NCBI GenBank assembly: GCA_016928515.1
Contig: JAFGKR010000187.1
Coordinates: forward strand, 1 to 34,770
Source: Bacteroidota bacterium
GTDB lineage: Bacteria > Bacteroidota > Ignavibacteria > SZUA-365
Direction of reading: 5' to 3'
Length of the DNA: 34,770 nucleotides
The position numbers and the translations under genes were made by a program. This document shows positions 79 to 29,484 of this stretch, one piece after another. The notes beneath the pieces were generated by a model. The model was not told the origin of the DNA, did not search any database, and saw nothing but the letters and a program-made list of their open reading frames with translations. Each line of letters starts with the position of its first letter. Positions within the stretch are counted from its first letter, which is position 1.

Positions 79-474
79 ATGCGTCAAGCCATACTCTGCG
101 TCGACGACGAACCCATTGTCCTGGACAGCTTGCGTACGCAGCTCAAAGGACATTTCGGCCCTCGTTTCACCTATGAGATCGCCGAGAATGCGGATGATGC
201 CTGGGAAGTCATCGACGAGCTCGTTGCTGACGGGGTGGACATCCTTCTGATCGTTTCCGACTGGTTGATGCCGGGAATCAAGGGAGACGAATTCCTCATC
301 ACCGTGCACCGTCGCCATCCCCGCATCATCACCTTCATGCTTACCGGCCAGGCGCACGATGACGCCATCCGCAACGCGCGGGAGCATGCCGCGCTCCGTG
401 CATGTATTCACAAACCCTGGCGGGAGGAGGAATTGATCGCAATGATTCAGACGGCCGTGGAGGATGCTCCATGA
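79..474 (+). CDS. Stand-alone response regulator receiver domain protein (131 aa)
   Basis: A single phosphoacceptor receiver (REC) domain with no output domain. Visible hallmarks are the acidic pair D9-D10, the phosphoacceptor D61 in SDWLMPG, the MLTGQ switch threonine and the conserved lysine in IHKPW. Such proteins act as phosphate shuttles or protein-interaction outputs in the cytoplasm. It overlaps the next gene by an ATGA junction, and that gene starts with a closely similar REC domain, so the two probably arose by duplication and may be served by the same kinase, likely the one at 5000-6796 (inference). The ATG at 79 gives a normal REC N-terminus, but no strong ribosome binding site precedes it. 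Only 78 bases of upstream sequence are visible, so earlier operon members could lie outside the window. Confidence 0.9.
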   Translation: MRQAILCVDDEPIVLDSLRTQLKGHFGPRFTYEIAENADDAWEVIDELVADGVDILLIVSDWLMPGIKGDEFLITVHRRHPRIITFMLTGQAHDDAIRNAREHAALRACIHKPWREEELIAMIQTAVEDAP

Positions 475-2048
475 GCAAGCCCGTACTGATGTGCGTGGAC
501 GATGAGGAGATGATCCTTCTCAGTTTGAAGGATCAACTCCGCGAGCATTTCAGCAGGGATTTCGCCATCGAGATGCTTGAAAGCGGCGATGAAGCCCTCG
601 AACTGGCGAAAGAACTCATTGCGTCGGCTATCGATATTCCCGTGATCATCTGTGATCAGATCATGCCCGGGATGAAGGGAAACGATCTTCTGCGCGAGCT
701 GTTCGTCCTCAGTCCCAAGACCTTTTCCGTGCTGCTCACCGGTCAGGCGGATGCCGGTGCCGTGGGCGATGCCGTCAACAACGCCAACCTGTACCGTTAC
801 ATCCCAAAACCCTGGGAAGAAACCGATCTCGTTCTGACGATTAAAGAAGCCGTACGCAGTTACTATCAGGACAAGAAGCTGGAAGAACAGAACCGCATCC
901 TCACGGAAATGAACGAAAATCTCGAGCAGCTTGTCGCGGACCGCACCATCGAAATTCTCCGGCAGAAGGATGAGATCCAGAAACAGATGCACAGCATCGA
1001 AGAACAGCGAAAGGAACTGGAGCTGCGCAACGGCTTCATCCGGGATGTCTTCGGGCGTTATGTCAGTGACGAAGTGATGAAGACCATTCTGCACGATCCC
1101 GCTGGTCTACAGATCGGCGGTGCGAAACGGGTGATCTCCGTGCTGCTCTCGGATCTTCGCGGTTTCACGATCTTCTCCGAACGTCTCGTCCCTGAAGAAG
1201 TCGTCCGTATTCTCAACCGCTACTTCGAACGCATGGTCGAAATCATCTCCGAACACAGCGGTATTGTCATCGAATTCCTGGGAGACGGTATTATGGCAAT
1301 ATTCGGCGCACCGAAACATCTCGACGATCACGCCGATCATGCCGTCGCCTGTGCGCTTTCCATGCAATTGGCGATGGAAGACATCAATCGCATGCATGAG
1401 ACGGAGGGCATTCCTCCTGTTGAAATGGGCATCGGTGTTGCGTCCGGAGAGGTCGTCGTCGGCAACATCGGCTCGCTTCGCCGGACGAAGTACGGTATTA
1501 TCGGGTATCCGGCGAACCTGGCGGCACGCATCGAGGCACTCAGCACCGGCCGGCAGGTACTGATTTCGGAGGAAACGCTGCAGCGCTGCCGTTCCGAGGT
1601 CGACATCGTCCGTCATTTCCGGGTATCCGTGAAAGGTGTGGATCACCCGCTCACCATTTATGAAGCTTCGGGCATCGGTAACGGATTCGGTATTCAATTC
1701 GCTCCCCCGCGGATCGCACTGCGACCGATCGAGAAAACCGTCTCCGTCGAATTCGCCATCCTCGACGGGAAATCAGTCCCTGACACCACGTATGCCGCAA
1801 AACTCCTTTCCGTCTCCAGCCGTGAAGCCGTGCTTCACGAACCGGTGCATCTTCTCCCGCACGCCGATGTGCGTCTGCATGCCATGCTCGTCGACGGGCA
1901 GCGCGTACCGATGGAAGTGTACGCCAAAGTCACGGAACGACAGAATGACACCGTTCGCCTGCGGTTCACATCAATCCTCTTTGCGGATTCGGAGAAGCAT
2001 TTCGAGGAACTCCTCGGTCTTCCGCCGCTCGAAAGGGTTGATGCATGA
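471..2048 (+). CDS. Receiver / class III nucleotide cyclase fusion with PilZ-like C-terminal domain (525 aa)
   Basis: Residues 1-130 form a REC domain (D10-D11, phosphoacceptor D62, T90, K113). Residues 131-190 are a charged coiled coil and 215-400 a class III adenylate/guanylate cyclase catalytic domain. Metal-binding aspartates are D228 (SDLRGFT) and D272 (FLGDG); N349 and R353 fit the transition-state positions in ANLAARIE. The substrate-selecting positions are E268 (normally Lys in adenylate cyclases) and G342 (normally Asp or Thr), a pairing closer to guanylate cyclases. Residues about 425-515 look like a beta-barrel of PilZ type without the RxxxR c-di-GMP motif (tentative). The start at 471 is chosen over an upstream in-frame ATG at 402 because GGAGG precedes it, it forms an ATGA overlap with the first gene, and the REC domain begins there. 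Phosphorylation of the REC domain probably controls cyclase dimerisation through the coiled coil (inference). Confidence 0.9.
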   Translation: MSKPVLMCVDDEEMILLSLKDQLREHFSRDFAIEMLESGDEALELAKELIASAIDIPVIICDQIMPGMKGNDLLRELFVLSPKTFSVLLTGQADAGAVGDAVNNANLYRYIPKPWEETDLVLTIKEAVRSYYQDKKLEEQNRILTEMNENLEQLVADRTIEILRQKDEIQKQMHSIEEQRKELELRNGFIRDVFGRYVSDEVMKTILHDPAGLQIGGAKRVISVLLSDLRGFTIFSERLVPEEVVRILNRYFERMVEIISEHSGIVIEFLGDGIMAIFGAPKHLDDHADHAVACALSMQLAMEDINRMHETEGIPPVEMGIGVASGEVVVGNIGSLRRTKYGIIGYPANLAARIEALSTGRQVLISEETLQRCRSEVDIVRHFRVSVKGVDHPLTIYEASGIGNGFGIQFAPPRIALRPIEKTVSVEFAILDGKSVPDTTYAAKLLSVSSREAVLHEPVHLLPHADVRLHAMLVDGQRVPMEVYAKVTERQNDTVRLRFTSILFADSEKHFEELLGLPPLERVDA

Positions 2049-3253
2049 AGACGCACCGTACCTTTCTTCTCTGCTCCATACTCCTTCTCCACCTGTCGCC
2101 GCTGAAGGCACAGGAAAACGAAACCTCACTCTTCGGTTCACTGCAGCTGATCCTGTTCAATCAGAAATCCCACCTGACATTCGGCGGAGGGACACTTCCT
2201 GGAGGAGGACAGCTCACCGAGGAACGAAGCAGTTTCGCGATCCAGCAGATGGATCTGTTCCTGCAGAAACACATCGGAGAGGATTTTACGGCCTTCTTCG
2301 ATCTGGAATTTCAGCTGAATTATTCTTCTGAGCAGCAATGGGGGGCGTTCAGTATCCAGGAAGCATGGCTCCACTACGCAATGTCGGATGCAGTGGGATT
2401 CAAGATCGGGATGCTCTATCCCGCATTCAACAATCTGAATGAGATCAAGAACCGACTCGCCCTGCTTCCCTATATTTTTCGCCCGGGAGTATACGAGCGC
2501 CTGCTCTCGGACCTCTTCCTGAGTGAGGATTACATTCCCGAAAGAGCCTATGTACAGATACAGGGCGGAGTACCGTACAAGTCGTTTTTCTTCGATTACG
2601 CCGTATATGCCGGAAATGCGGAGGGATCGTACATTTCCACTCCCGGGCCAGACGGGAATCCGCGGAACGATCTCAACAGCGGTTTCGAGTTTCTGACCGG
2701 TGTGGATCCGACCGAGTTCAATCTGAAGCTTTTCGGCGGACGGGCCGGCATCCGTGCACGGGATGAACAGTTCAAGGCAGGGATTTCCTTTACACATGAC
2801 TACGACAATCTGCGCGACACGACGTCGTACCCGCTCATCTACGACGGCATCCGTGGGCCACTGCGAGGCGATGCACGCCGAATGCGGATCGGAGGAGATG
2901 TTTCCGGCCGCATCGGCCCTGTCCGCTTCGAGGTCGAAGGCATTTCCGTGCTGTACGATCATCCGCCCGCGGAGGAGCGCGGGATCGAACTTTCCATGGA
3001 TTTCGCATACGCAATGGTAGGGTATGCGTTCGGTGACGCACTCTTTGTGTACGGATCGTATGAAGGAGGAACCGCAGTATTTGGTCAGCGATGGACGCAT
3101 CAGACTGTCACTGCGGGTGCTGCATATCAAATCTCCCCTGCTGCAACCGTGAAAGCACAATATATTCTCTATCGCCAGTTTCTCGATGAAGCCTTGCATC
3201 AGGACGAATCCTCACTTCGATTTGTGTTTCTCGGACTCAGTCTCGTATTATGA
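2045..3253 (+). CDS. Outer-membrane porin-like beta-barrel protein, copy 1 (402 aa)
   Basis: It begins with a Sec signal peptide of about 23 residues (basic MKTHR, leucine-rich core, cleavage near LKAQ). The rest shows alternating aromatic/polar strands and ends in hydrophobic strand residues (FVFLGLSLVL), typical of an outer-membrane barrel. It resembles the phosphate-selective or general porin type in overall design, but no substrate can be read from sequence. The start overlaps the cyclase stop by four bases (ATGA), so the two are probably translationally coupled. It is clearly paralogous to the protein at 3692-4972: shared segments include DLEFQLNYSS, SIQEAWL, LNEIKNRLAL and GGRAGIRARDEQFK / GGRLGVRTRDEQFK. 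It probably brings small solutes or anions to the periplasm for the co-transcribed binding protein and kinase (inference). Confidence 0.8.
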   Translation: MKTHRTFLLCSILLLHLSPLKAQENETSLFGSLQLILFNQKSHLTFGGGTLPGGGQLTEERSSFAIQQMDLFLQKHIGEDFTAFFDLEFQLNYSSEQQWGAFSIQEAWLHYAMSDAVGFKIGMLYPAFNNLNEIKNRLALLPYIFRPGVYERLLSDLFLSEDYIPERAYVQIQGGVPYKSFFFDYAVYAGNAEGSYISTPGPDGNPRNDLNSGFEFLTGVDPTEFNLKLFGGRAGIRARDEQFKAGISFTHDYDNLRDTTSYPLIYDGIRGPLRGDARRMRIGGDVSGRIGPVRFEVEGISVLYDHPPAEERGIELSMDFAYAMVGYAFGDALFVYGSYEGGTAVFGQRWTHQTVTAGAAYQISPAATVKAQYILYRQFLDEALHQDESSLRFVFLGLSLVL

Positions 3254-3260
3254 GCCCCAG

Positions 3261-3692
3261 ATGACCATTTCCACACGCATATTCTCCTTCGTCGCTCTAT
3301 TGCTGGGACTTGCCTGTAATTCCCTGCAGGCGCAGACCGTCGTCATCACGAATCCCTCGGTTCCGACCGAGAGTTTCAGCGCGAAGGAGCTTCTGGATGT
3401 GTACACGCTGAACAAGGCACACTGGGAAAACGGCTCGCGTATTACCGTTTTTGATCTCAAGAGCGGGAAAGTGAAGGAGACGTTCTATGATCATCTCGGG
3501 ATATCTGAGCAGGAGCTGCAGCGCATATGGTTGCGGAAACAGTTTACCGGAAAGGCTCGACCACCACGCTCGATGTCGAACGAAGACGACGTCGTGCGCA
3601 TGGTCGAAAGCACACCCGGCGGCATCGGATATGTCAGTGAGCGTGCGGTAGCCGGAAAGAAGAATGTCCGCATCGTCGCGCGGATCAAATAA
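3261..3692 (+). CDS. Secreted one-lobe phosphate-binding-like (PstS-type) protein (143 aa)
   Basis: A signal peptide (MTISTRIFSFVALLLGLACN, cleavage near LQAQ) is followed by about 118 residues resembling part of a PstS-type periplasmic binding protein. The motifs FSAKELLDVYTLNKAHW, a QRIWLRKQFTG stretch and the near-terminal TPGGIGYVSE are typical of small 'phosphate ABC transporter substrate-binding' proteins. At 143 residues it is about half of a normal two-lobe binding protein, so it may act as a sensor partner or single-lobe binder rather than deliver to an ABC importer; no permease or ATPase gene is nearby. The ATG at 3261 is preferred over the in-frame ATG at 3186, which lies within the porin gene. 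It sits 7 bases after porin 1 and overlaps the second porin's start by one base. Confidence 0.75.
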   Translation: MTISTRIFSFVALLLGLACNSLQAQTVVITNPSVPTESFSAKELLDVYTLNKAHWENGSRITVFDLKSGKVKETFYDHLGISEQELQRIWLRKQFTGKARPPRSMSNEDDVVRMVESTPGGIGYVSERAVAGKKNVRIVARIK

Positions 3693-4972
3693 TGCGTTTC
3701 ATCCTCCGTACGAAAGACATGCGTATTTCTTTCGACATTTCGCTGATAAGTGTTCCGCTCATCCTTCTCGGGATGATGGCTGCTACAGCCACGACGAACG
3801 CCCAGGTCGACGATGCGCTACAGCTGTTCGGTTCGATGCAAACCATCTTCTTTCACCAGGAATCGCGTATCGACACCGACATCCCCGCTCTGGGATTCTC
3901 CTCTTCCGGCACGGAGACACGCAACACCTTTGCGCTGCAACAGATGGATATTTTCCTCCGAAAGGAAATCGATGCAGATTTCACCGCATTCGTGGATCTG
4001 GAGTTTCAGCTCAACTATTCTTCCGACCAGCGCTGGGGAAGCGTCTCCATCCAGGAAGCCTGGCTCAATTATCACCTGAGCGATGCGATCAATCTGAAAA
4101 TGGGGCTGCTCTTCCCGGCATTCAATCATCTGAACGAAATCAAGAATCGTCTGGCACTCCAGCCGTATCTGTTCCGGCCCCTGGTTTACGAACGTCTTCT
4201 TTCACGAAAATTCTTTGCGGAGGATTTCATTCCGGAGCATGCGTTTTTTCAGGTTCACGGTGCACTCCCGACCGGAAACTGGTTCGTGGATTACGCAGCC
4301 TATGCCGGAAACGCGGAGGCTTCGTACATTTCGCGATCCGCACCTGACGGGAGTATCATCACGGATCTGAATCCGAACTTCGAATTTCTGTCCGGTGTCG
4401 ATCCTTCCAACATCAAACTCAAGCTGTTCGGGGGCCGTCTCGGAGTGCGCACACGAGATGAACAGTTCAAGGTCGGACTCTCGCTGACGCATGATTACAA
4501 CAATCTCCGGGACTCAACGCGCTACCCCGGTCATGTCCTTTCAGGTCCCGCCCGGCGGCTGCTTGGAAGCGACGCACCACGAATCCGTGTCGGGCAGGAT
4601 CTCACCGGACGACTCGGGGACTTCTGGCTCGAATTCGAAGCGATCAAAGTGCTCTACAACCTCGACGAAGCGGATCGGCTTTCGATTGAAATCGAGCAGT
4701 CCTTCTTTTCCGGTGTGCTCGGGTATGACATCATTCCGGAAGTAACGACGTACGCCACTCTTCAGTACGGCGATTACACGTTCGGACTCGACTCGGACTA
4801 TTTTCTGTACGGCTTCGGCGGCGCGTGGCGCGTCAACGACGCAATATCGGCCAAGGCACAGTTTGTCGTCTACGATGAACAATTCAACGATTCCCCTTCC
4901 GAAGGATCGACGGTGATCAGCCAGCATGTCTGCATCACATTCGTTTTTCTCGGCTTCAGCATCCTCTTGTAA
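3692..4972 (+). CDS. Outer-membrane porin-like beta-barrel protein, copy 2 (426 aa)
   Basis: Paralogue of the porin at 2045-3253, with colinear conserved blocks through most of the length and the same kind of terminal strand (FVFLGFSILL). The signal peptide spans about residues 10-38 with cleavage near TTNAQ. The ATG at 3692 overlaps the previous stop by one base (TAATG), but an in-frame ATG at 3719 would give a more standard signal peptide (MRISFDISLISVPLIL) and is a real alternative. The two copies flanking a binding-protein-like gene suggest a local duplication followed by divergence in the loops. Ligand unknown. Part of the operon that ends with the kinase at 5000. Confidence 0.8.
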   Translation: MRFILRTKDMRISFDISLISVPLILLGMMAATATTNAQVDDALQLFGSMQTIFFHQESRIDTDIPALGFSSSGTETRNTFALQQMDIFLRKEIDADFTAFVDLEFQLNYSSDQRWGSVSIQEAWLNYHLSDAINLKMGLLFPAFNHLNEIKNRLALQPYLFRPLVYERLLSRKFFAEDFIPEHAFFQVHGALPTGNWFVDYAAYAGNAEASYISRSAPDGSIITDLNPNFEFLSGVDPSNIKLKLFGGRLGVRTRDEQFKVGLSLTHDYNNLRDSTRYPGHVLSGPARRLLGSDAPRIRVGQDLTGRLGDFWLEFEAIKVLYNLDEADRLSIEIEQSFFSGVLGYDIIPEVTTYATLQYGDYTFGLDSDYFLYGFGGAWRVNDAISAKAQFVVYDEQFNDSPSEGSTVISQHVCITFVFLGFSILL

Positions 4973-4999
4973 CGCACTCAGCATCAGATCGCATACGAC

Positions 5000-6796
5000 A
5001 TGAAACTTCTGCGCGAAAGACGGTTCACGGTACGGCAGAAAATCCAGCTGCCGATCATCCTCTTCATTGCGCTGCTGTCATTGTTCATGTTTCTCTATTT
5101 CCCGTACGAGCACAAACAAGCACTGACCGACAGTTTCCGTAATGAGGTGCGTTCACTCGCCCAGATGGTATCGAACAGCGTGACGATCGCTGCCGCGAAT
5201 CAGGACTGGGACGCCGTTCGGCATGCACCGGACTTCGTGCGCAAAGCACCCGGTGTCCTTTTTGTCGCGATGATCGATCTCGAAGGAAATACCTTTTCTT
5301 CACCCGATGAGAGTTTTCGTTACGACCCGACCTACGAGCACTCCGACACACTGATCGTCGGCTCATATCCGGTTGAAACCAGCATGTTCCGCGGATCCGT
5401 TGTCGTCGGTTCCAGTACGCGATTCATTGACGAAAAGGTCGTCACCCTCCGCGTGACCACACTGTGGGTAGCGCTGATCACATTATTCCTCGGAACGCTG
5501 TTCGGGATGTGGGTGGCAAACCTGATCGTCCGTCCGCTCTCCCTTCTCCGGCTTGCTGCGATCAAAGTAGGGCACGGGGATCTCGATACCGCAGTGTACC
5601 GGACGTCACACGATGAAATCGGAGACCTCGCGACTGAATTCAGCAAGATGATCACAAATGTGCGGCTTGCACAGGTCAGCGTTCAAGAGACAAACGCCGA
5701 GCTGCAGACAAAGAATCGGCTGCTTGAAGCGGAACGGCGTCAGCTCGCTCGCACACTGGAACATCTCAAAACCACGCAAGCGCAGCTGGTACAGTCTGAA
5801 AAAATGGCGGCACTTGGGCAGCTCATCGCAGGTATCGCTCATGAAATCAACACACCATTGGGAGCGATTCGGGCGTCCATTTCAAATATTGAACATGCAC
5901 TCGAACATACGTTGCGTGAGCTGCCATCTCTGCTTCCGCGCCTGACACCGACGATTCAGGAACAGTTCTTCGCGATGGTAGAAGCCAGTCTCGATCAGGA
6001 TGTTTCCCTGTCTCCGCGCGACGAGCGACAGAAACGCAGGGAACTCCGTGTACAGCTCGCTGAATTGGAGTTGCTCCATGCGGACGAAATCGCTGACGCA
6101 CTTGCCGACATGTCCCTCTTTGACGATTGGCAGCCATTCTCGGAACTCCTGCGCCACCAGGACGTCCGGGAGATCCTCCTCGCTGCAACCCGACTCGCAC
6201 TTCAGCAGCGGAACAGCAGGAACATCGAGACCGCCGTAGAGCGCGCAAGCAAGATCGTCTTCGCACTGAAGAGCTTCTCGCATCGTGACCAGAGCGGAGA
6301 GATGGTTCGCGCCGATCTCGCAGAAGGGATTGATACCGTAATTACGCTCTACCATAATCAACTCAAGCACGGAATCGAGGTCGTCCGCGACTTTGCTCCA
6401 TTGCCACGTGTGTTCTGCTATCCGGATGAACTGAACCAGGTGTGGACAAACCTGATTCATAACGCGATTCACGCGATGCACAATCAGGGAGTGCTTGAAA
6501 TTTCCCTTCACCGCGACGGTGATAATGTGGAAGCGAGGATTACGGACTCTGGTCAAGGCATCCCGGAAGAGATCCGGGAGAGAATATTCGAACCGTTCTT
6601 CACGACCAAAGAAGCCGGACAGGGGACCGGTCTGGGGCTCGATATCGTCCGGCGCATCATCGAGAAACACGAAGGCAGCATCGACGTTCGGAGCCGCCCG
6701 GGACGAACAACCTTCATCATCCGCATTCCACTGCGCACCGAACGCAGTACCAATTCTGCTGGTCCGTCCACCGACGAGTCGGGCCGACGGATGTAG
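5000..6796 (+). CDS. Membrane sensor histidine kinase with HAMP and enlarged H-box region (598 aa)
   Basis: Order: TM1 about residues 15-34; an extracytoplasmic sensor segment about 35-150; TM2 about 153-178; HAMP about 178-230; a coiled coil to about 265; the H-box with H281 in [11 protein letters not shown]; then a HATPase domain with N-box N488 ([10 protein letters not shown]), G1 DSGQGIP (516-522) and G2 GTGLGL (542-547). Between the H-box helix and the second dimerisation helix, which appears to resume near residue 410 ([11 protein letters not shown]), there are about 100 extra helical, charged residues. The sensor segment is too short for a double-Cache fold and I do not recognise it. 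As the last gene of the operon, it is the obvious candidate to phosphorylate the two receiver proteins encoded at its start. Confidence 0.92.
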
Positions 6797-6802
6797 AACA
6801 CC

Positions 6803-8203
6803 ATGCCTGCCGACGCTGCCCCGCACGTATCACACCGGATGATCTCCACCCGCCATCTCCGGGAGACCACTGCCCTGGCCATTCCGGTTTCCATCGGACA
6901 GCTCGGGCATGTCATGCTGAGCGTCACCGACAGCCTGATGGTCGGACAATTGGGGGCAGCGCATCTCGCAGCCGCGTCACTCGGCCACAGCGTGTTCGTG
7001 CTCTTGCTGGTTTTCGCCATCGGCTGTAGCTCCGCAATCACCCCACTGACGGCGATCGCCGCCGGCAAGGGAGATCATGACGAGGCCGGCATCGTTTTCC
7101 GCCAGGGGTTGCTCCTCTGCGCTTTCATCGGCATCCTTCTCATCGGTGCCGCATGGATTCTGACCGATTTTCTCGACCTGCTCGGGCAGGAACAGCACGT
7201 GTTGGTACTCGCAGCACCCTATCTGCGAATCCTCGGTTTCAGCTTCCTCCCGATGATGATATTCCTCTCCACGCGGCATTTCATTGAAGGGCTCTCCTGG
7301 ACCCGCCCTGCGATGATTATCATTCTTCTCGCAAACGCTGTCAATGTCGGCGGAAACTGGGTTCTGATCTACGGGAATCTCGGCATGCCGGCACTGGGAC
7401 TCAATGGTGCCGGATACAGCAGCCTGCTTGTTGAGCTGTTCTCCGCTGTTGCAATTTTCACCTATGTGTTCCGAGCAAAACGCTTCCGGCGATATCAACC
7501 GATCCTGCAGTTCCGTTCAATCAATATTTCCGTCATGCGACGCCTGCTTCGTATCGGTGTGCCCAGCGGGGTGCAGTACATGCTCGAGGCGGGATCCTTT
7601 TCGTTCTCTGCGATCATGATGGGATGGATTGGCGCTACTGCGCTTGCGGCACATCAGATAGCGATCAGCCTCGCATCCGTCAGTTTCATGATCATCCTCG
7701 GCATCTCCCATGCAGGCACGATCCGCGTCGCGAACTTTGTGGGGAAACGTGATGGGGAGGAAATCCGACGTGCAGGTGTCACAGCGGCGATCATGGCCCT
7801 CGGCTGCATGTCGCTCGCGGCACTGACGTTCATCCTGTTCCGTACGGAATTGCCGAAATTCTATATCGACGACACCTCCGTGATTTCCCTCGCGGCCAGC
7901 CTTCTGATCTATGCCGCCGTCTTCCAGCTGTCGGACGGGATGCAGGCTGTTGGTCATGGCATTCTCCGTGGAATGACCGATGTCACGGTCCCGATGATGA
8001 TCGCGGCGTTCGCGTACTGGGTGGTTGGTCTTCCATCAGGGTACCTCTTCGCATTCATACTCGATTTCGGACCGGAGGGCATCTGGCTTGGATTTGTCGG
8101 GGGACTCACGACGGCGGCCGTTGCGTTTCACATTCGCTTTCATCGTCTCAGCCGCCGTCTGTTTCCTCCGTCCCCTGCGGAGACGGCTCCCGCTGCGCGA
8201 TGA
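6803..8203 (+). CDS. MATE family multidrug/toxin efflux transporter (466 aa)
   Basis: A polytopic inner-membrane protein with about 12 hydrophobic segments in two similar halves and the usual MATE length. Recognisable family regions include [20 protein letters not shown] near the N-terminus and the second-half counterpart [23 protein letters not shown] carriers export cationic compounds or metabolites in exchange for Na+ or H+; the substrate cannot be deduced. The start at 6803 lies 6 bases after the kinase stop, so it may be co-transcribed with that operon, but the function looks unrelated. An alternative ATG at 6839 would remove 12 residues ahead of the first membrane segment. Its 3' end overlaps the convergent dehydratase gene by 56 bases. 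Confidence 0.92.
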
Positions 8204-9805: not shown

Positions 9806-9822
9806 TATAGGTCAGTGTTGTG

Positions 9823-10437
9823 ATGACGCCGGAAGGTATGGCAGACACCCTAGCAGGACAATACGTTCCCCCTCGCGCCACGGAACCCGGCGATGATATT
9901 CTCATCACCCGCTTCCAGGCCGGAGATGACGATGCCTTTCGTCTGCTGCTTGAACGCTATACGGAACGGATACGCAATCTGGTGTTCAGTATTTTTCATG
10001 ACACGGATCTGATCGATGACATCACCCAGGATGTATTCATCAAAACCTATCGTGCACTGCCGCACTTCCGTTTCGACGCGTCATTCTACACATGGCTGTA
10101 TCGCATCACCGTGAACCATTGCCGTGACATCATGCGGAAACAGAAACTGCGAAAGATGCTGTCCCTGCACTCACTGATGGAAACCCGCGATCGGGAACTG
10201 ACGGTAAAAACCTCCGTGCAACCAGCGGATACGGATACGCAGGAATGGATACAGAAAGGACTGCAGAAACTCCCGGAGAAATATCGTCTCCCGGTGATTC
10301 TCAAGGATATGGAAGGATGTTCCTACGAGGAAATGGCGGATATCATGCAATGTGAACTTGGAACGGTTAAATCACGACTCTCACGCGGGCGCTCCATGCT
10401 CCGCGATTGGCTGCGACCAATGCTGGAGGGATACTGA
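9823..10437 (+). CDS. ECF-subfamily RNA polymerase sigma factor (204 aa)
   Basis: A two-domain sigma-70 family protein. Region 2 spans about residues 30-100 (AFRLLLERYTERIRNLVF, DDITQDVFIKTYRAL, FYTWLYRITVNHCRD) and region 4 about 145-200 (LPEKYRLPVILKDMEGCSYE, EMADIMQCELGTVKSRLSRG, a helix-turn-helix). It directs RNA polymerase to a specific promoter set and is normally held by a membrane anti-sigma factor, here apparently the next gene one base downstream. Start choice is uncertain: GTG 9820, ATG 9823 and ATG 9838 are in frame and none has an ideally spaced ribosome site; GGAAGG lies too close to 9838. A candidate self-recognised promoter lies at 9781-9805. Confidence 0.93.
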   Translation: MTPEGMADTLAGQYVPPRATEPGDDILITRFQAGDDDAFRLLLERYTERIRNLVFSIFHDTDLIDDITQDVFIKTYRALPHFRFDASFYTWLYRITVNHCRDIMRKQKLRKMLSLHSLMETRDRELTVKTSVQPADTDTQEWIQKGLQKLPEKYRLPVILKDMEGCSYEEMADIMQCELGTVKSRLSRGRSMLRDWLRPMLEGY

Positions 10438-10438
10438 C

Positions 10439-12040
10439 ATGCTCTCCCGGCACGCGACCCGCGTCTCTCAGCAATTATCCCTTTACTTGGACGACCGTCT
10501 CGAGGGAATCGAACGGCTGGAAATCGAACGTCGTATTGCGAACGATGCTGCCGTTCGAGAGGAATACCAGCAGCTGAAAGCCATGCAGGCGATGCTGGCC
10601 TCCCGTGATGCACTCCCCGAAAACCCGTTCCTCGCTGAACGCATCATGAATCGCCTCCACGAGCATACCGGGGAGCGGGACGATGCGTCCCCGGTTTCAC
10701 ACCGCTTCCTTCCCGTCACTGCAGGACTCTTCGCTGTCCTGCTTGCCGCCGTCGCCCTTTTCGCGTGGTTGCAGAGGGACGACATTGTGCACTACGTGGA
10801 AGAAACCGGGGCCCAGATGCAACACGCCTACGAGGAAACCATTCTCAAAGGCTGGATCATGCCCCTGTTTCAACGCACCGATCGGGATCAGGTTCTCCAT
10901 TTCGCCATGTTCGGGACACTTCCGCTGGACAGGGAGGACGGCACCATCCTTCGGATCGACGAAAACGCCACTCAGGGCTATCGCGTCGAACTCGCCCGCG
11001 AACCGGAGCTGGCACGACCACATGCGACCATCGATGAGCTGTACTCGGAAATTGAACCGACCGAAATGCAGCGCAAAGTGTTCGATTCCCTCTTCCTCTA
11101 CGCCCAGAGACAGATCGAGTCCTCCGTACTCATGAACGATGAGAAGGAACTTGCAATCGATCCCGCGATCAGCACATATCAGAAAGTCATTCTCTCCGGT
11201 ATCGCGGCAAGTCTTGAACCGGACCAGCAGGAGCGCTTTGAACGCTTCCTGTCACAGCGTCATACACCGTACACCTTCGTCTCCCGCATTTCCCGTCAGA
11301 CACGACCGGCGAGTACGCAGCGTCCTGACCGTGTCATCGAGCATTTTCGGACCGTACCCCTGCCGGAGGAATTCGTCGTGTTTACACGCGACAGCATCTC
11401 GCGTACGCGGCTCCATCTGGATATGGACAGTTTGCGCCGCCTGATGAAAATGGTGGAAGACCGGATGCCTCGCATTCAGGTAGAGGTCAAGGAACTCGTC
11501 CGTATCCAGATCAGGGGCAATGACAATGTCATGCGGGAAATGGAAATCGATCTTCTGAATGTCCTTAACGAAATCGCCATCCTCCGGCGTGAGGAAACGC
11601 CCCGAACCCGAAGTGTGACCCGTTCGTCCCGCCCTCAACGCATGCCTCGTGAAACGGATGTGCGGATAGATATTTCACCGGACTCGGAGATGCATATCAC
11701 CGTGGGAATCGATTCCGTCATCAATCGGGCACTTCAGCCGCTCGAACGTATGGGGATCGATTTCCCGGCTGACTCCATGGGCATGCGGGATCGTTTCGAT
11801 CATGATTGGCGGCGTTTCGTTCCGGAGGAGCGGCTACGGACACTTGACAGCCTGCTGCGCCGACACATTCCGGGAGATTCCGGCCGCTGGCGACGACATC
11901 CTGATCCTGCTCCGCCGGAGTCGCGCTTCGAACATCCCGAGCGCCTTCCCGAAGGTCTGATGATTCCGCATCCGATGCGTCCGCGACTTCTGGATCCAGC
12001 ATCCACGCCTTTGAAGAAGGATACCGTATACGACATATAA
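10439..12040 (+). CDS. Putative membrane anti-sigma factor with large extracytoplasmic domain (533 aa)
   Basis: The start at 10439 is supported by GGAGGG eight bases upstream and lies just after the sigma gene stop. Residues 1-75 form a helical cytoplasmic segment of anti-sigma type (QQLSLYLDDRLEGIERLEIE, then ERRIANDAAVREEYQQLKAM), but it has no HxxxCxxC zinc motif. A single membrane helix covers about residues 90-112 (LPVTAGLFAVLLAAVALFAW). The remaining 420 residues should be periplasmic; they are charged, rich in arginine and proline towards the C-terminus, and contain no fold I recognise. Position, topology and N-terminal pattern support an anti-sigma role (inference); the outer domain is far longer than in typical anti-sigma factors and could be the stress sensor. 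Confidence 0.72.
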   Translation: MLSRHATRVSQQLSLYLDDRLEGIERLEIERRIANDAAVREEYQQLKAMQAMLASRDALPENPFLAERIMNRLHEHTGERDDASPVSHRFLPVTAGLFAVLLAAVALFAWLQRDDIVHYVEETGAQMQHAYEETILKGWIMPLFQRTDRDQVLHFAMFGTLPLDREDGTILRIDENATQGYRVELAREPELARPHATIDELYSEIEPTEMQRKVFDSLFLYAQRQIESSVLMNDEKELAIDPAISTYQKVILSGIAASLEPDQQERFERFLSQRHTPYTFVSRISRQTRPASTQRPDRVIEHFRTVPLPEEFVVFTRDSISRTRLHLDMDSLRRLMKMVEDRMPRIQVEVKELVRIQIRGNDNVMREMEIDLLNVLNEIAILRREETPRTRSVTRSSRPQRMPRETDVRIDISPDSEMHITVGIDSVINRALQPLERMGIDFPADSMGMRDRFDHDWRRFVPEERLRTLDSLLRRHIPGDSGRWRRHPDPAPPESRFEHPERLPEGLMIPHPMRPRLLDPASTPLKKDTVYDI

Positions 12041-17348: not shown

Positions 17349-20300
17349 TTACCGTTCCACCATGATGAACCCTGCCCAGAAAAAGGGATGTGCATACTCC
17401 CTGCGCATTCTCTTCCGTGCCTCTCGAAATGCCCTGTAGGCGTCATTGCTCTCAAGCAGTCCCTCGTAAAACCACTGCATCATCATCGCGGTGGGTTCAT
17501 CCGCCACTTTCCACAGTGTCATCAGCAGGCACTCCGCCCCTGCGACCTGAAACGCCCGCTGCAAACCGAAAATGCCTTCGCCGTTGGTAATATCCCCAAG
17601 TCCTGTTTCACAGGCGGAGAGTGTCACGAGTTCCGTCCCTGTCAAATCCAGTCGACTGATTTCCAGCGCACTCAGGATACCGTCATCACCTCGCGTCGGG
17701 GGAGATTTTCCGGTCCACACTTCGTTCACTCCACTGAATACCAGTCCTGCTCGGAGCATGGGATTATCTTCAACACGAAGCTGTTGCGCTCCCCCGCGGG
17801 TTACGATTTTCTGTCTCTCGTGGGTATCACCGATCCGGGGAACCGGGAAAAAAAATCCGTGTGTTGCGATATGAAGGATTCGCGGACTCGACCCGCTGAG
17901 GGCTTTGACTTTCTCTTCGCGTGCCTGTGGGCCGACAAGTGTAACGTGCGTGATGTTTCGTGCAGAACAGATTTCCGAAATCCGTTCGACTTCCTTCATC
18001 GTTCCCGGCAGCGGTCCCCACGCCCCCCCACGCGTAATATCACCGCCCGGGACCTCATCCGTATCCTCATCTGAACTCAGTTCTCCGAACTGCGGTGCTC
18101 CCAGAAGTACGACGCTTTGTGGTGAACGGTACCGTGACGGTTTGAAGCGGATATTGCGTGAGAGCAGATCGCGTGATCCTGTGAGGAAATGGAGTTCATA
18201 CCGATCATCGAGGTAGGTTGTAGATGTCCCCTCTCCGGTAACCAGGGCATGAAATGAAAGGCGATGGAGAACACCGTCGGGAACCAGGTAACAGGTTCGT
18301 ACATTTTTCAGCTTCTCTTCCAGTGGCTGCCAGACGAGAGAATACAGCTCTGCGGATAGTTGTGGATCGGAAACATAGTTCTCTTTCTGCGGATGCATCG
18401 TGCCATCGAGATACGGACGGAGTTGGTCCTCGCGTGCAAGCGGCACGATGACGGGGTCGTCGGTCCTGGTGAGGACTACCGCAGAATAGAGAATGGTATC
18501 CGTACTCGTCCGATAGTCGTAGTGAAAGGGATGCACGACGAATTCGACGAGGGCTTCATCCGCCTCGAGCTGTCTGCGCACGTCCATCCAGTCGGCGTCC
18601 TGTCGTCTGCGAAGTTTATCATACTCACGGTCGAGCTTCCGCAGGGTGGCGTCGAGCGAATCCGCACTGCGTTGAATGCGGCGTCGTTCCTCCATGAGAA
18701 GAGCATCGTGCGGTCTGCCGGCGAGAGCCGCATCCTGCTCACGTAATGTCGTCAGGCGACCGTTCAGTTCGTCCGCAAAGCGATTTTTCGATCCCTCCGC
18801 GCTGCGGCGTGCCGTTTCATTCGCCACAGCCCCCTTGAAACGCAGCATTGCCTGCAACAGCAATATCGGGATCTCCCTGTCATGATCAGCATACTGAACG
18901 CAGAACTGCCCTATCAGATCGAGGTTGGGTTTCAGGACGGTATTCATGTACTCGAGTTGATGGCGCTCACTGTCGAAGCCGAATGATTGTTTCATTGCGA
19001 TATCGAGGTGATGCATCAACTCCTGCAGGTGCAGAAGTGCCTTGCCGATCTCTTGTTGCTGGGCGTACATCTGTGCGACAATGCGCTCTGCCGCGATACG
19101 TTCCGTATGACCGTCATCGAACATCTCGCGACGAATTTCCAGTGATTCCTCCAATTGTGCGCGTCCTTCTGCGGAGAATCCCGATTCCACGTTCATCCGG
19201 CCGAGGTTCCCCAGAGCGACCGCCAGCTCTACCCCATCAGGCTGGTTCAGTGCGCGAAACTCCTCAACGGCCTCCGCGAAATGCAGTCGGGCTTCCCCGC
19301 TGTGTCCCTGATCGCGATACAGCGTGCCAAGGTTATTGTACTGCCGCGCAATTTCCGGATGTGGACGCTCATACAACCGTTTCACCATTTCGAGTACGGA
19401 GACATAGAGTCGCTCCGCTTCTTCGAGACGCCATTGCTGTGCGTAAAGGGAGGCGAGATTATTCAGCACGATCGCGCGTTGCTGATGATCACCGGGGTAC
19501 AGCGAATCGAGCATGGCGCGCGCAGCTTCGAAATGTTCTTCCGCATCAGAGAACCGGCCGCGGATCATGTGGAAATATCCCATGTTGTTCAAGGACAGCA
19601 GCACATCGGCATGTGGCCCGGGATGCAGTCTTCGTCGCATTTCAAGGGATTCCCGGTACAGGGGCTCTGCTTCCGCATCCATACCGCGTGACTGGAAGAA
19701 ACTGGCGAGGTTGTTCATTGCGGTTGCGACCGCCGGATGGTCACCTGGATACCGTCGTCGCGCCCGCTCAAGAACATCGACCATCAATCGCTCGGCTTCA
19801 GCAAGTCGGCCGAGACGCGTATAGAGATACGCGAGATTGTTTTTCAGCGTGATGACCTCATCGTGATCCGAATCACCATAGGTGGAGGACGCAATGCGGT
19901 TCGCCTCCAGGTACAGTTGCTCCGCATCCTGAAAGTGCCCGCTGGATGTCAGGAAATAGGCGAAGTTGACCATCGGGGAAATCAGTTCGGGAGCGCCGTC
20001 CGGATACAGCCGACGGTACATGGCCAGACTCTCGGCATAATACGATTCCGCCTGACGCGTCTTCCCGAGCCCTTCATAGAAGACGGCTAGATTGTTGTAA
20101 CCGATGGCCACCTCCACATGATCCCCTCCATAGATCCGCTGCTTCATCTCCATGGCTTCAAGAAATAGCGGTTCTGCGTGATCCGGCTTCCCCGCACGGT
20201 GCCAGTAGTATGCCATGTTGTTCATTGTCTGGGCAAGGGAGGGATGATCACCTGGATGCATGCGCCGGCGCATAGCGAGCGCTTCCGCATACAGTGGTCT

Positions 20301-20690
20301 GGCTGCCTCCGTGTTGCCCTCCGCATCGAGCAGGAAGGCACAATTCGAAAACGCATCAGCGACATTGGCATGATCGCCTCCCTGAATCCCGTCCTGTGCG
20401 AACGCGAGGGCACGGCGTGCGATGTCGGTCGTGCTGTCAGACCCGGCTTCGTATGCCGAAAGAAGTTCCATCAGCAGAAGCTGATAACGCACTGAATCTT
20501 CCACTGAACGCCACTGCCCCCGGGAGACATCGGGATAATCCCCGACGTCCCCGCTCTCCTGCGCCCGTGCACTCTGCCATGATGCAATGTGCCATATGGT
20601 GGAGAGGCAAAGACCGATGGTCAGAAGAAACCGGAACAGCGCAGGCATAGGGTGCTGCTCGGGAAACAGTCCGGGAAAGACAGGAGACAC
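17349..20690 (-). CDS. Secreted TPR-repeat CHAT-domain (caspase-like) protein (1113 aa)
   Basis: Residues about 75-560 contain roughly eleven kinesin-light-chain-type TPR repeats of 42 residues (e.g. PSLAQTMNNMAYYWHRAGK). A helical linker follows at 560-720, then a C-terminal CHAT domain, a caspase-fold cysteine peptidase. The catalytic pair is intact: H944 in HIATHGFF and C1027 in LSACETGLG; GEGIFGLQRAF and the terminal HPFFWAGFIMV are also typical. A hydrophobic segment ending near SARAQ predicts export, which is unusual for a putative protease of this fold. Two starts are possible: GTG 20690 with GGAGG eight bases upstream (used here) and ATG 20648, which gives a neater signal peptide but no clear ribosome site. 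Target unknown. The gene lies 17 bases downstream of the small HicB-like gene on the same strand. Confidence 0.87.
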   Translation of the reverse strand: MSPVFPGLFPEQHPMPALFRFLLTIGLCLSTIWHIASWQSARAQESGDVGDYPDVSRGQWRSVEDSVRYQLLLMELLSAYEAGSDSTTDIARRALAFAQDGIQGGDHANVADAFSNCAFLLDAEGNTEAARPLYAEALAMRRRMHPGDHPSLAQTMNNMAYYWHRAGKPDHAEPLFLEAMEMKQRIYGGDHVEVAIGYNNLAVFYEGLGKTRQAESYYAESLAMYRRLYPDGAPELISPMVNFAYFLTSSGHFQDAEQLYLEANRIASSTYGDSDHDEVITLKNNLAYLYTRLGRLAEAERLMVDVLERARRRYPGDHPAVATAMNNLASFFQSRGMDAEAEPLYRESLEMRRRLHPGPHADVLLSLNNMGYFHMIRGRFSDAEEHFEAARAMLDSLYPGDHQQRAIVLNNLASLYAQQWRLEEAERLYVSVLEMVKRLYERPHPEIARQYNNLGTLYRDQGHSGEARLHFAEAVEEFRALNQPDGVELAVALGNLGRMNVESGFSAEGRAQLEESLEIRREMFDDGHTERIAAERIVAQMYAQQQEIGKALLHLQELMHHLDIAMKQSFGFDSERHQLEYMNTVLKPNLDLIGQFCVQYADHDREIPILLLQAMLRFKGAVANETARRSAEGSKNRFADELNGRLTTLREQDAALAGRPHDALLMEERRRIQRSADSLDATLRKLDREYDKLRRRQDADWMDVRRQLEADEALVEFVVHPFHYDYRTSTDTILYSAVVLTRTDDPVIVPLAREDQLRPYLDGTMHPQKENYVSDPQLSAELYSLVWQPLEEKLKNVRTCYLVPDGVLHRLSFHALVTGEGTSTTYLDDRYELHFLTGSRDLLSRNIRFKPSRYRSPQSVVLLGAPQFGELSSDEDTDEVPGGDITRGGAWGPLPGTMKEVERISEICSARNITHVTLVGPQAREEKVKALSGSSPRILHIATHGFFFPVPRIGDTHERQKIVTRGGAQQLRVEDNPMLRAGLVFSGVNEVWTGKSPPTRGDDGILSALEISRLDLTGTELVTLSACETGLGDITNGEGIFGLQRAFQVAGAECLLMTLWKVADEPTAMMMQWFYEGLLESNDAYRAFREARKRMRREYAHPFFWAGFIMVER

Positions 20691-24611: not shown

Positions 24612-26924
24612 CTATCCCGGACTTTTCTCCGAATCCTTGTCAGGTTGTGTCTCAGGGAGTTTCTCCATTTTCTCTTTTCCGGATAATTCCGGGTGATAAC
24701 ATTCACGGCAATGATGATATAGCCGTTCTGCGTGGTACACGATCTCCTCGCATTCGGTGAGGATCTCCAGGTAGAGCAAGCTGGTCCGCGTCGTGTACTT
24801 CTCCTTCTTGGAACGCTTGAGTTGCTGTTTGTCCGCTTTCCGGATACGGTTCCGAAGATCTTCGACCTTGTTTTCGAGTTTATCGGCCTTGCCGAAATCC
24901 GCTTGCGCAATGCTGTCCGATATGCGGGAGAGTTCCTTCTTCATGGCCGCAACGATTTCGGTGAACTCCTCCTGCTGAAAACCTGACAGCCCTTTGTGGT
25001 TGTTGTCGATATGCGAATAACATTGCCCGGCGAAATTCCGCAGGCTTCGCAACAGCAATTGCAGGGAACCCATCGCTTCAGCATAGGTTTTTCTTTCGAT
25101 GCTGTCGTCCTTTTCCTCCATCTGTGACGTCCGGAAAATGCTGGCCATCATTCCCTTTCCGCGTTTGTGGAGGTCCTTCGCCATATCCCGGGCTTCCCGC
25201 AGGGCAAGACGATCCTCGGTCATCAACCCCTCAGAAACGCGGTTGACAATCTGAATAGTCGTGGAGACCGCATCACTGAAATCCGCTTTCAGGGCATCGA
25301 GAGCCAGTTCGATGTTCGTACCGGAACCGGATATTCTCCTCTCCGCTTCCTGATATTCCTTCTCCCGCTTGCGGTGGACATTGAGGGAACGCCATAGAAG
25401 GTACCCAGCGAGAAGGGCCACCAGAATCAGACCGACCAGCTCAGTGAAATAGATGATCGTTGCGATAATGGCAGCCGCGGTCGCGGCAACGAATGCCGTA
25501 AAAAACCATCCACCAATGACGGTGAGGACTCCGGAGACTCTGTAGACGGCGGAGTCACGACCCCAGGCACGATCCGGAAGTGCGGTGGCCATGGCGACGA
25601 TGAAAGTGACGTATGTCGTCGAGAGAGGAAGCTTGAGTGACGTTCCGAAGGATATCAGCAGAGCGGCAACGATGAGATTCACCGCTGCACGTAAAAGATC
25701 AAATGCCGGGACTTCTCCGTCCTCGGAGGGGACCGGTTTGTACTTCGATGTGTCAAACCGCCGTTCGACTTTCTCCTTGATCGCATCCGGAGTGATGACG
25801 GAGAAAAAGTGGATGATGGCAAGGACCAGACGAACAATGGAACGGGCGGGTGCGATGGATTCGAACCGTTCGTATCCGTCGCTCTGGCGGCCGAGGTTCA
25901 CGGAGGTCGCCGTAACTGTCCGCGCCTTTTTATTCACCCAGAGAGTCGCCGCCATGATTGCGCCTGCCAGAAGCAGGATCCACGTATTCGCCCGTACCGG
26001 TTCCAGGAGGGATTCCATGGTTTGCGAGAGCGGATCGGAGACGTCCTGAACGTGCATGAACGCGGCGAGTCCACCCAGAGGCGCACCGATGAAATTCACG
26101 AGATCGTTCGCTGCAAAAGCCATTGCAAGCGCGAACGTTCCGGCCAGCACAATCGGTTTGAAAACGTTGATCTTCATTGTCCAAACCAGAATCTGCATCA
26201 GCAGCGTCCAACCCAGAAATGAGATTCCTGCAATCAGCAGTGTGTTTTCCTTCAACCACAGGGCCTGGCTTTCATCGAGAAACGATGCGCCTTTCGCCCC
26301 TTTGACCAGAATGAAATACGAGAGCGCTGCGAGAGCGAAACCACCCCAAACCGCTCCGAACCGTCTCAGCTGTTTTGCGTAATCGAATGTGAACAACATT
26401 CGCGACAGATACTGCACAAGCGACCCGACGATAAAGGCAACCACGACGGATGCGACGATACCAAAGATGATTTTGAATACGCTCGCCGTGTTGATGAAGG
26501 CGAAGACGTCGCCAACACCTCCGCTGCCTGCCTGAATAACCTTGATCGTCGCGATGGCAAACGCAGCACCGAGAAGCTCGAACACCAGCGACACTGTCGT
26601 CGAGGTCGGCAGGCCGAAGGTGTTGAAAAAATCCAGCAGCAGAACGTCCGTCAGCATCGTTGCGGCAAAGATGAACATGACTTCCGGAAATGTCAGCATC
26701 TGCGGATTGAAAATCCCGTTCCGGGCAACCTCCATCAGACCGCTTGAGAAGGTAACTCCGACAATGATTCCAAGTGTCGCCACGATCATGATCACAAAGC
26801 GCGGCGCGACCCTTGCCCCAATCGCTGACGTGAGAAAATTCACCGCATCATTTGCAACACCGACCATGAGATCGATGATCGCGGTAGCGAGCAGAATGAC
26901 GAGAACAATGACAAAGATTTCCAT
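24612..26924 (-). CDS. pit: Pho4/PiT-family inorganic phosphate transporter with PhoU-like C-terminal domain (770 aa)
   Basis: The N-terminal 560 residues carry the two inverted Pho4 repeats with their signatures GVANDAVNFLTSAIGAR (residues about 23-39) and FAANDLVNFIGAPLGG, and about twelve membrane helices. Such carriers import phosphate with a cation. Residues about 590-755 form a long helical, charged cytoplasmic segment like PhoU/DUF47 proteins, which regulate phosphate transport. This makes the protein much longer than E. coli PitA (about 500). ATG 26924 lies 28 bases after the phoU stop; longer in-frame starts (e.g. 27038) lie inside phoU. No strong ribosome site is seen, so coupling to phoU translation is possible. 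Last gene of the phoB-phoR-phoU-pit operon. Confidence 0.9.
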   Translation of the reverse strand: MEIFVIVLVILLATAIIDLMVGVANDAVNFLTSAIGARVAPRFVIMIVATLGIIVGVTFSSGLMEVARNGIFNPQMLTFPEVMFIFAATMLTDVLLLDFFNTFGLPTSTTVSLVFELLGAAFAIATIKVIQAGSGGVGDVFAFINTASVFKIIFGIVASVVVAFIVGSLVQYLSRMLFTFDYAKQLRRFGAVWGGFALAALSYFILVKGAKGASFLDESQALWLKENTLLIAGISFLGWTLLMQILVWTMKINVFKPIVLAGTFALAMAFAANDLVNFIGAPLGGLAAFMHVQDVSDPLSQTMESLLEPVRANTWILLLAGAIMAATLWVNKKARTVTATSVNLGRQSDGYERFESIAPARSIVRLVLAIIHFFSVITPDAIKEKVERRFDTSKYKPVPSEDGEVPAFDLLRAAVNLIVAALLISFGTSLKLPLSTTYVTFIVAMATALPDRAWGRDSAVYRVSGVLTVIGGWFFTAFVAATAAAIIATIIYFTELVGLILVALLAGYLLWRSLNVHRKREKEYQEAERRISGSGTNIELALDALKADFSDAVSTTIQIVNRVSEGLMTEDRLALREARDMAKDLHKRGKGMMASIFRTSQMEEKDDSIERKTYAEAMGSLQLLLRSLRNFAGQCYSHIDNNHKGLSGFQQEEFTEIVAAMKKELSRISDSIAQADFGKADKLENKVEDLRNRIRKADKQQLKRSKKEKYTTRTSLLYLEILTECEEIVYHAERLYHHCRECYHPELSGKEKMEKLPETQPDKDSEKSPG

Positions 26925-26952
26925 GCGCGTATAACGATTCTTGTTAAAAAAT

Positions 26953-27645
26953 TCACGTTCGTTCTGAATGGTTGTCTGTTGAACGCGCGGTGCGACCGCT
27001 GTGCCGGATGATGCGTCCTTCCGCGATGTAGACGACATTTTCCGCAATGTTCGTCGCGTAGTCCGCGATACGTTCAAGATACCGGGAAATGCTGAGAAGA
27101 TGAATAAGGCGTTCAGTCTGGAGTGGAGTGGCGAGGATTCTGTCGCGAACGAGATCGTACATCGCCCTGTTGAGTACATTCACCTCATGATCCCGGTCGC
27201 AAACTGCACGCGCCAGAACCGGATCCATGTCCACAAGTGCGTCAAGACTGTGGGTCAGCATGGAGAGTGTGCGCTCAGCGAGTGCCAGTAATTCAGTCGG
27301 AAGAAGCAGCTGATCGTATTGCCCGAGGGAGAGAACACGGTGCGATACATTTCCCGCGAGATCTCCGACGCGCTCGAGATCAGCATTGATTTTCAGCACG
27401 GCGACCACAAAGCGTACCCCCGCATCGTCCAGTGTCCCGCTCTGCAGCAGAACGACACAGTCTTCCTCTATACTGATTTCGAGAGCATCGACCTCGTCAT
27501 CCCCATCGATCACACGTTGTGCTGATTGCCAGTCTCTTGCACGAATGGCGAGAACGCAACGTCGTGCATTCTCTTCCACGTGTGCGCTCAACTGCAGCAG
27601 CTTGCGCCTGAGGAGGTCGGGAGTATGTGCGGCTCTGTTTTTCAT
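26953..27645 (-). CDS. phoU: Phosphate signalling regulator PhoU (230 aa)
   Basis: Two three-helix PhoU repeats: the first contains LQLSAHVEENARRCVLAI and VLKINADLERVGDLAGNVSH, the second LLSISRYLERIADYATNIAE, each with the metal-binding E/DxxRxxD pattern. PhoU links phosphate-transporter activity to the PhoR kinase and represses the Pho response in high phosphate. The start at 27645 (MKNRAAHTPDLL) gives the normal family N-terminus. An alternative ATG at 27702 has GGAG eight bases upstream and would add 19 residues and overlap phoR by 26 bases; I cannot exclude it. It sits between phoR and pit. Confidence 0.93.
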   Translation of the reverse strand: MKNRAAHTPDLLRRKLLQLSAHVEENARRCVLAIRARDWQSAQRVIDGDDEVDALEISIEEDCVVLLQSGTLDDAGVRFVVAVLKINADLERVGDLAGNVSHRVLSLGQYDQLLLPTELLALAERTLSMLTHSLDALVDMDPVLARAVCDRDHEVNVLNRAMYDLVRDRILATPLQTERLIHLLSISRYLERIADYATNIAENVVYIAEGRIIRHSGRTARSTDNHSERT

Positions 27646-27676
27646 CCACGCATATATTGTGATGCGAACACTGATA

Positions 27677-29482: not shown

Positions 29483-29484
29483 GC

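Follow-up and report, generated by a model that had tools for sequence, protein, structure and literature searches.

The genes at the left edge of the window (the whole contig of 34770 bases that was analysed, from a draft assembly of 3.77 Mb in 375 contigs) are read, at a probability of roughly 0.55, as a signalling system that spans the cell envelope and is organised around a portable input cassette, namely a porin and a half-size PstS-like periplasmic protein (the one-lobe protein). The conserved core is this pair, which is smaller and more widespread than the operon. The pair looks like a reusable sensing attachment because it is found across the phylum beside many kinds of sensor; no description of a porin/PstS-like/receptor module was found in the searchable, non-subscription papers.

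The operon lies close to the contig edge (the contig starts at base 1 and the first gene at 79) and its genes are listed in Table 1. The six-gene run with short overlaps and gaps of at most 27 bases that had been described in the earlier note was recovered on the + strand, with spacings from the receiver to the histidine kinase (HK) of −4, −4, +7, −1 and +27 bases. The domain assignments made there were upheld by the Pfam families in Table 1, as was the absence of an ABC permease, none being present in the operon or nearby. The proposed extent of 79–6796 held for these six genes; the end at 6796 did not, as the gene for a MATE efflux transporter had been overlooked. This gene starts 6 bases past the HK gene and stays beside it in same-family relatives (L032–L037), and the unit therefore probably comprises at least seven genes and extends to 8203. 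A promoter and terminator scan of the + strand of the operon gave no credible internal promoter or terminator, the counts being near the shuffled expectation; the single 10/12 promoter match was located inside the HK gene. The scan and the joint conservation of the genes both agree with the earlier reading of the run as one unit.

Table 1
Genes of the operon at the left edge of the window and the basis of their assignment
Feature	Position	Strand	Basis
Stand-alone receiver, 131 aa, NosR-like REC	79..474	+	Pfam Response_reg 3.5e-15; first gene of the conserved block
Receiver + class III nucleotide cyclase, 525 aa	471..2048	+	Pfam Response_reg + Guanylate_cyc
Porin A, 402 aa, 16-stranded solute porin	2045..3253	+	AlphaFold2 model + Foldseek; weak Porin_4
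One-lobe PstS-like periplasmic protein, 143 aa	3261..3692	+	Model, Foldseek, profile match; weak PBP_like_2
Porin B, 426 aa, paralogue of porin A	3692..4972	+	48–49% identity to porin A
Membrane histidine kinase (HK), 598 aa	5000..6796	+	Pfam HAMP-HisKA-HATPase_c
MATE efflux transporter, 466 aa, probable last gene of unit	6803..8203	+	MatE 3.3e-59

Full-length orthologues of the HK were identified in seven relatives, with the same gene order in all. The complete order (REC, REC-cyclase, porin, one-lobe protein, porin, HK, MATE) was present in four of them (L032, L033, L035 and L037) and a partial order in two more, L036 having no porin A and L038 a single porin and no MATE gene; in L034 the locus is cut by the contig end, leaving porin B, HK and MATE visible. 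An identical order of seven genes in four other genomes argues against a chance arrangement, and conservation of the neighbourhood, which had been named beforehand both as a check and as the point on which the unit could fail, was thereby borne out. When named genome contigs were scanned with a profile of the closer set of one-lobe proteins, only four named relatives came up, most of them Ignavibacteria metagenome bins. REC genes beside similar kinase cores in other families (L039–L048) were considered and rejected: the REC gene of L039, where this was checked, encodes a fusion of REC with a pyridine-nucleotide oxidoreductase, and these loci are therefore not counted as instances of the module.

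The HK contains a periplasmic sensor domain of ~120 residues (36–158) between two transmembrane helices (17–35 and 159–177), followed by HAMP, HisKA and HATPase_c domains. Its HisKA domain has a long insertion and retains H281, and the N/G ATP motifs are present. The stand-alone receiver has the phospho-acceptor D61 together with the Thr/Lys switch residues, and the receiver of the REC-cyclase has the phospho-acceptor D62. The operon thus carries the residues expected of a two-component system (H281, ATP motifs, D61 and D62); a degenerate kinase or degenerate receivers were rejected, all motifs being in place.

The cyclase has both metal-binding aspartates (D228 and D272), the substrate pair E268/G342, an FGRY motif at 194 and a C-terminal extension; a degenerate cyclase was rejected, as every catalytic residue is present. 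Its closest solved relatives are Cya2 (2W01, 6.7e-58) and then a phytochrome–Cya2 chimera (6FHT). The Glu-Gly combination is the unusual GTP-recognition pair of Cya2 (PMC4886424), in which the single change E488K leads to adenylyl cyclase activity (PMC5995499). In the alignment the adenylyl cyclase CyaB carries Lys and Thr at the two positions, and the Glu/Gly pair is present in all seven cyclases from loci with the gene order of the window. By its residues the protein would belong with the Cya2-type class III guanylyl cyclases (two metal Asp plus the Glu/Gly pair). Because the closest solved relative is Cya2 and its Glu/Gly pair is kept, the REC-cyclase is predicted to be a guanylyl cyclase under two-component control, with cGMP as product. 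The nucleotide cyclase controlled by a receiver that had been proposed earlier is in this way retained, with both domains present, and refined to a probable guanylyl cyclase. The cyclases of two distant loci described below, L066 and L106, have Q/A and E/A, respectively, instead of the full E/G pair, so cGMP may be specific to loci with the window order.

The one-lobe protein retains ~119 residues after removal of the predicted signal peptide. Its model (pLDDT 90.4) was matched by Foldseek to PstS proteins with about half of the target covered (TMt 0.33–0.39), and in this comparison the second lobe was absent from the model. In profile alignment the protein maps onto lobe 2 of PstS, with an E value of 2e-05 to the PstS-type protein 1TWY. 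The Pfam family PBP_like_2 scored 13.3 bits, below the 27-bit cut-off, a search of the PDB sequences using the window protein alone gave no match, and a PF12849 search of the source genome likewise gave none. Judged from the model, the protein by itself has no complete binding cleft and cannot close on a ligand. The AlphaFold2 model of porin A (pLDDT 79.9) has a 16-stranded porin fold and its best Foldseek matches are the porins PorB, Omp38 and OmpT; Porin_4 scored 23.5, just under the 27-bit cut-off. The earlier note's twin porins of uptake type therefore remain twin porins, with the fold corrected to that of ordinary solute-diffusion porins related to the general porins.

The profile of the one-lobe protein was scanned against 394 genomes of the source's phylum and the protein was found in 31 of them. 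Relatives and scan together gave a set of 46 one-lobe genes after three full-length PstS-like genes had been removed. A porin of one family adjoins 44 of the 46 and lies directly upstream in 43. The pair also occurs on replicons of Pseudoalteromonas, Saccharobesus and Caballeronia, and plasmid records account for nine proteobacterial cases. Outside the window order, 30 of 37 loci have a same-strand transducer beside the pair: a chemoreceptor (MCP) in ~16 loci and a histidine kinase of simple (HisKA), HWE or hybrid type in ~13. An HK and a receiver-cyclase accompany the pair together in two distant genomes (L066 and L106), a histidine kinase with a receiver-kinase in L110 and similarly in L112, and a HAMP-SpoIIE phosphatase at one locus (L122). 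The remaining 7 of the 37 loci show no clear transducer beside the pair, as do some proteobacterial pairs, which suggests that the pair may also work without one.

Sensor segments were taken as the periplasmic stretches between the two membrane helices. A profile built from only the seven HK sensors of the window order matched the sensors of MCPs (L101, 8e-32; L115, 7e-29; L127, 3e-25), and iteration added 20 further segments, including those of hybrid kinases, an HWE kinase and the SpoIIE protein. As judged from these profiles, most of the adjacent transducers have one periplasmic sensor domain in common. Pfam gave no family name for it, the nearest sub-threshold families being CHASE8 and sCache_3_2; a second group of transducers has four-helix-bundle sensors. 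In the converse scan with the sensor domain, 22 of 27 strong matches (E about 1e-19 or better) had a one-lobe gene within ~5 kb, in most cases as a direct neighbour, compared with none of 15 weak matches; only 12 of the 27 had not been part of the search alignment, and of those 12 seven were near the pair. The five strong matches away from the pair belong to orphan chemoreceptors or hybrid kinases, one of the chemoreceptors being truncated. Divergence of the one-lobe protein correlates strongly with that of the porin (Mantel r 0.90; 0.89 outside the window order) and moderately with that of the sensor (0.55; 0.44 outside the window order), these values partly reflecting the common descent of whole loci. 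The pattern fits a porin/one-lobe unit that has been plugged into different receptors.

On the preferred reading, which starts from the observed gene linkage, the folds, the shared sensor domain and the substrate residues of the cyclase, a small solute would enter the periplasm through porin A or porin B, as suggested by their fold. The one-lobe protein would bind it as one half of a site shared with a partner (the periplasmic domain of the HK, a second one-lobe copy or the mouth of the porin) and so report the solute. Linkage, the shared sensor domain and the known principle of binding-protein action suggest that it would then act on the ~120-residue sensor domain of the HK; direct contact between the two would be in line with the shared domain and the co-divergence. 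The intact motifs and the co-location of the genes are consistent with an HK that alters the phosphorylation of both the receiver-cyclase and the stand-alone receiver, the latter serving as a sink or as a second branch. The phosphorylated receiver is predicted from the residues to set the activity of the guanylyl cyclase, with cGMP as the output. At other loci of the phylum this cassette would instead feed into chemotaxis, other kinases or a phosphatase. The idea from the earlier note that the porins and the binding protein report a ligand to the HK, which sets a cyclic-nucleotide output, gains from the recurrence of the pair beside transducers that mostly share one sensor domain, and is narrowed in that the HK–cyclase pairing is only one of several outputs. 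It is conceivable, although rather unlikely, that the porin belongs to the sensor itself: its dedicated one-lobe partner would sense, at the periplasmic mouth, either the flux of solute or the occupancy and relay this to the inner-membrane receptor. Pores would then signal through an interchangeable adaptor, with chemotaxis, phosphorelay or cyclic GMP as the output.

Phosphate sensing or scavenging, in which porins of the phosphate type would supply a PstS-like protein and this protein would signal phosphate to a PhoR-like kinase, is considered improbable. Its attraction lies in the PstS fold of the one-lobe protein, in the annotation of proteins of this type as phosphate ABC transporter substrate-binding proteins and in the presence of the phosphate porin OprP among the structural matches of porin A; OprP ranks only 31st, however, and the nearest matches are general porins. 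The anion site of PstS lobe 2, formed by Ser-Gly-Thr and an Arg that bind phosphate in E. coli PstS, is not conserved across the one-lobe family. A PHO4 transporter and a PhoR-like kinase form a separate cluster in the same window (24612–30201). Phosphate is disfavoured as the ligand because the anion site is missing, the operon has no permease and this other cluster exists. The "phosphate-binding-like" protein of the earlier note accordingly keeps its one-lobe PstS fold and loses phosphate as its ligand, half of the PstS site being missing and the remainder not conserved. Classic Pst phosphate transport was rejected on the same observations, the match to PstS being below cut-off and confined to one lobe.

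A response to envelope-permeability stress was judged equally improbable. Here the HK would control the porins and flanking efflux pumps on entry of a toxic solute, the one-lobe protein being a porin-associated monitor and the cyclic nucleotide a relay. In the window family the unit ends with the MATE gene, and in four relatives the receiver is preceded, at a distance of 112–257 bases upstream, by an RND permease gene and a TolC-type gene (the families were checked in L032 and assigned by size and place in the other three); the one-lobe protein and the porin are also the most tightly co-diverging pair. Against this, neither receiver has a DNA-binding domain, no recurrent efflux neighbour of the cassette was seen outside the window family, and chemoreceptors are the commonest neighbours there, which is a better fit to nutrient or signal sensing. 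Mere co-transcription, with the porins and the one-lobe protein as an uptake pair and the two-component cyclase answering an unrelated signal, would account for the pairs that stand alone (L120, L123, L125, L136 and L140) but is the least probable reading, given the several kinds of same-strand transducer, mostly with one sensor domain, and the concentration of strong copies of that domain near the pair.

Activation of chemoreceptors, kinases and c-di-GMP enzymes by binding proteins is an established mechanism (PMC9602780), GltB–GtrS being one example (PMC7927077). In GltB–GtrS–GltR of Pseudomonas aeruginosa and in AioX–AioS–AioR a solute is signalled to the kinase by a binding protein in the periplasm; aioX lies beside aioSR and gltB is co-transcribed with the porin gene oprB (PMC7927077, PMC7533571). 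GltB is a complete binding protein and works for an ABC transporter as well, and AioX binds arsenite via a cysteine. The operon differs from both in its half binding protein, its dedicated porin partner, its cyclase response regulator and its lack of a permease. A gene for a PBP-fold protein beside a membrane receptor gene was found in the operon and in most of the 46 loci; of the two-lobe ligand cleft only one lobe is present, and the system is therefore regarded as a variant that would work like this family and not as a plain member. With PstS (Pfam PBP_like_2) the one-lobe protein shares the fold of one lobe, whereas the second lobe, a conserved lobe-2 phosphate motif and PstCAB are lacking. 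The cyclase has the E/G pair and the FGRY motif of Cya2 from Synechocystis, but Cya2 is a membrane CHASE2 receptor and the operon protein a soluble response regulator. In the c-di-GMP-regulating systems NspS–MbaA and YfiR–YfiN–YfiB an outer-membrane or periplasmic part, a periplasmic reporter and an inner-membrane enzyme are encoded in one operon; these systems have no porin and their folds differ from those of the operon proteins, although the porin/one-lobe pair does adjoin a gene for a GGDEF-EAL protein in Caballeronia.

Activation of a receptor by a periplasmic binding protein is thus already known. The present case differs in that the binding protein is half-size and has no cleft, that it is almost always paired with one porin family, that the pair accompanies chemoreceptors, kinases, a phosphatase and a cyclic-di-GMP enzyme, and that a cGMP branch is predicted. 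The one-lobe protein is short and widespread and is annotated as a substrate-binding protein of phosphate ABC transport, but it seems rather to form one half of a sensory cassette linked to a porin. This reading gives the one-lobe family a testable function and leads to the question of a role for porins in signalling. A cyclic GMP pathway under two-component control is also predicted in Ignavibacteria-like bacteria; cGMP signalling has been documented in few bacteria, Xanthomonas campestris being one (PMC3770947). The source genome also contains two genes with cNMP-binding domains, which are possible receptors, and two further class III cyclase domains.

RND efflux permease and TolC-type genes were found directly upstream of the receiver gene in the four relatives that keep the entire seven-gene order, receiver to MATE (L032, L033, L035 and L037; families checked in L032 and assigned by size and place in the others), so that in this family the module is flanked by two efflux systems. 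The REC-cyclase (window 471-2048) carries a C-terminal extension of ~110 aa, from about residue 410, for which no Pfam match was obtained; in the Synechocystis guanylyl cyclase Cya2, the closest solved homologue of the REC-cyclase, the C terminus is likewise extended, by 118 aa that stimulate activity (PMC5995499).

Coordinates of loci and clusters
Locus	Positions	Strand	Feature
L032	1088-5565		RND efflux permease and TolC-type genes; equivalent position in L033, L035, L037
L110	3938-6902		cassette kinase, then receiver fused to HisKA_2 kinase
L112	3967-6931		as L110
L124	3460-11104		three porin/one-lobe pairs in tandem, then one chemoreceptor
L039	6007-9321		histidine kinase adjoining REC protein; likewise L040-L046, L048
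Window	24612-30201	-	phosphate cluster: PHO4-type transporter, PhoR-like kinase, 238-aa gene
Window	27677-29482	-	PhoR-like kinase: sCache_like, HAMP, PAS, HisKA

The cassette, a porin paired with a one-lobe PstS-like protein beside a membrane transducer, varies in its partners. L110 and L112 encode a putative kinase-to-kinase relay (fusion checked in L110), and the tandem arrangement of L124 suggests that several inputs feed one receptor. On an Alteromonas plasmid (L137 8214-12369) a one-lobe protein gene adjoins Type IV CRISPR genes (csf1-csf5).

The histidine kinases of L039-L046 and L048 have a catalytic core similar to that of the window kinase (32-39% identical) and adjoin REC proteins of 551-567 aa; the one checked, in L039, is a REC-pyridine-nucleotide-disulphide oxidoreductase fusion.

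A search of the window's genome for a full PstS found none. The transporter of the phosphate cluster has 855 aa, and the 238-aa gene probably encodes a regulator of the adjoining PhoR-like kinase. Elsewhere in the window, an ECF sigma factor gene is followed by one matching an anti-sigma factor (9820-12040), and a 1113-aa protein combines TPR repeats with a CHAT caspase-like domain (17349-20690, minus strand).
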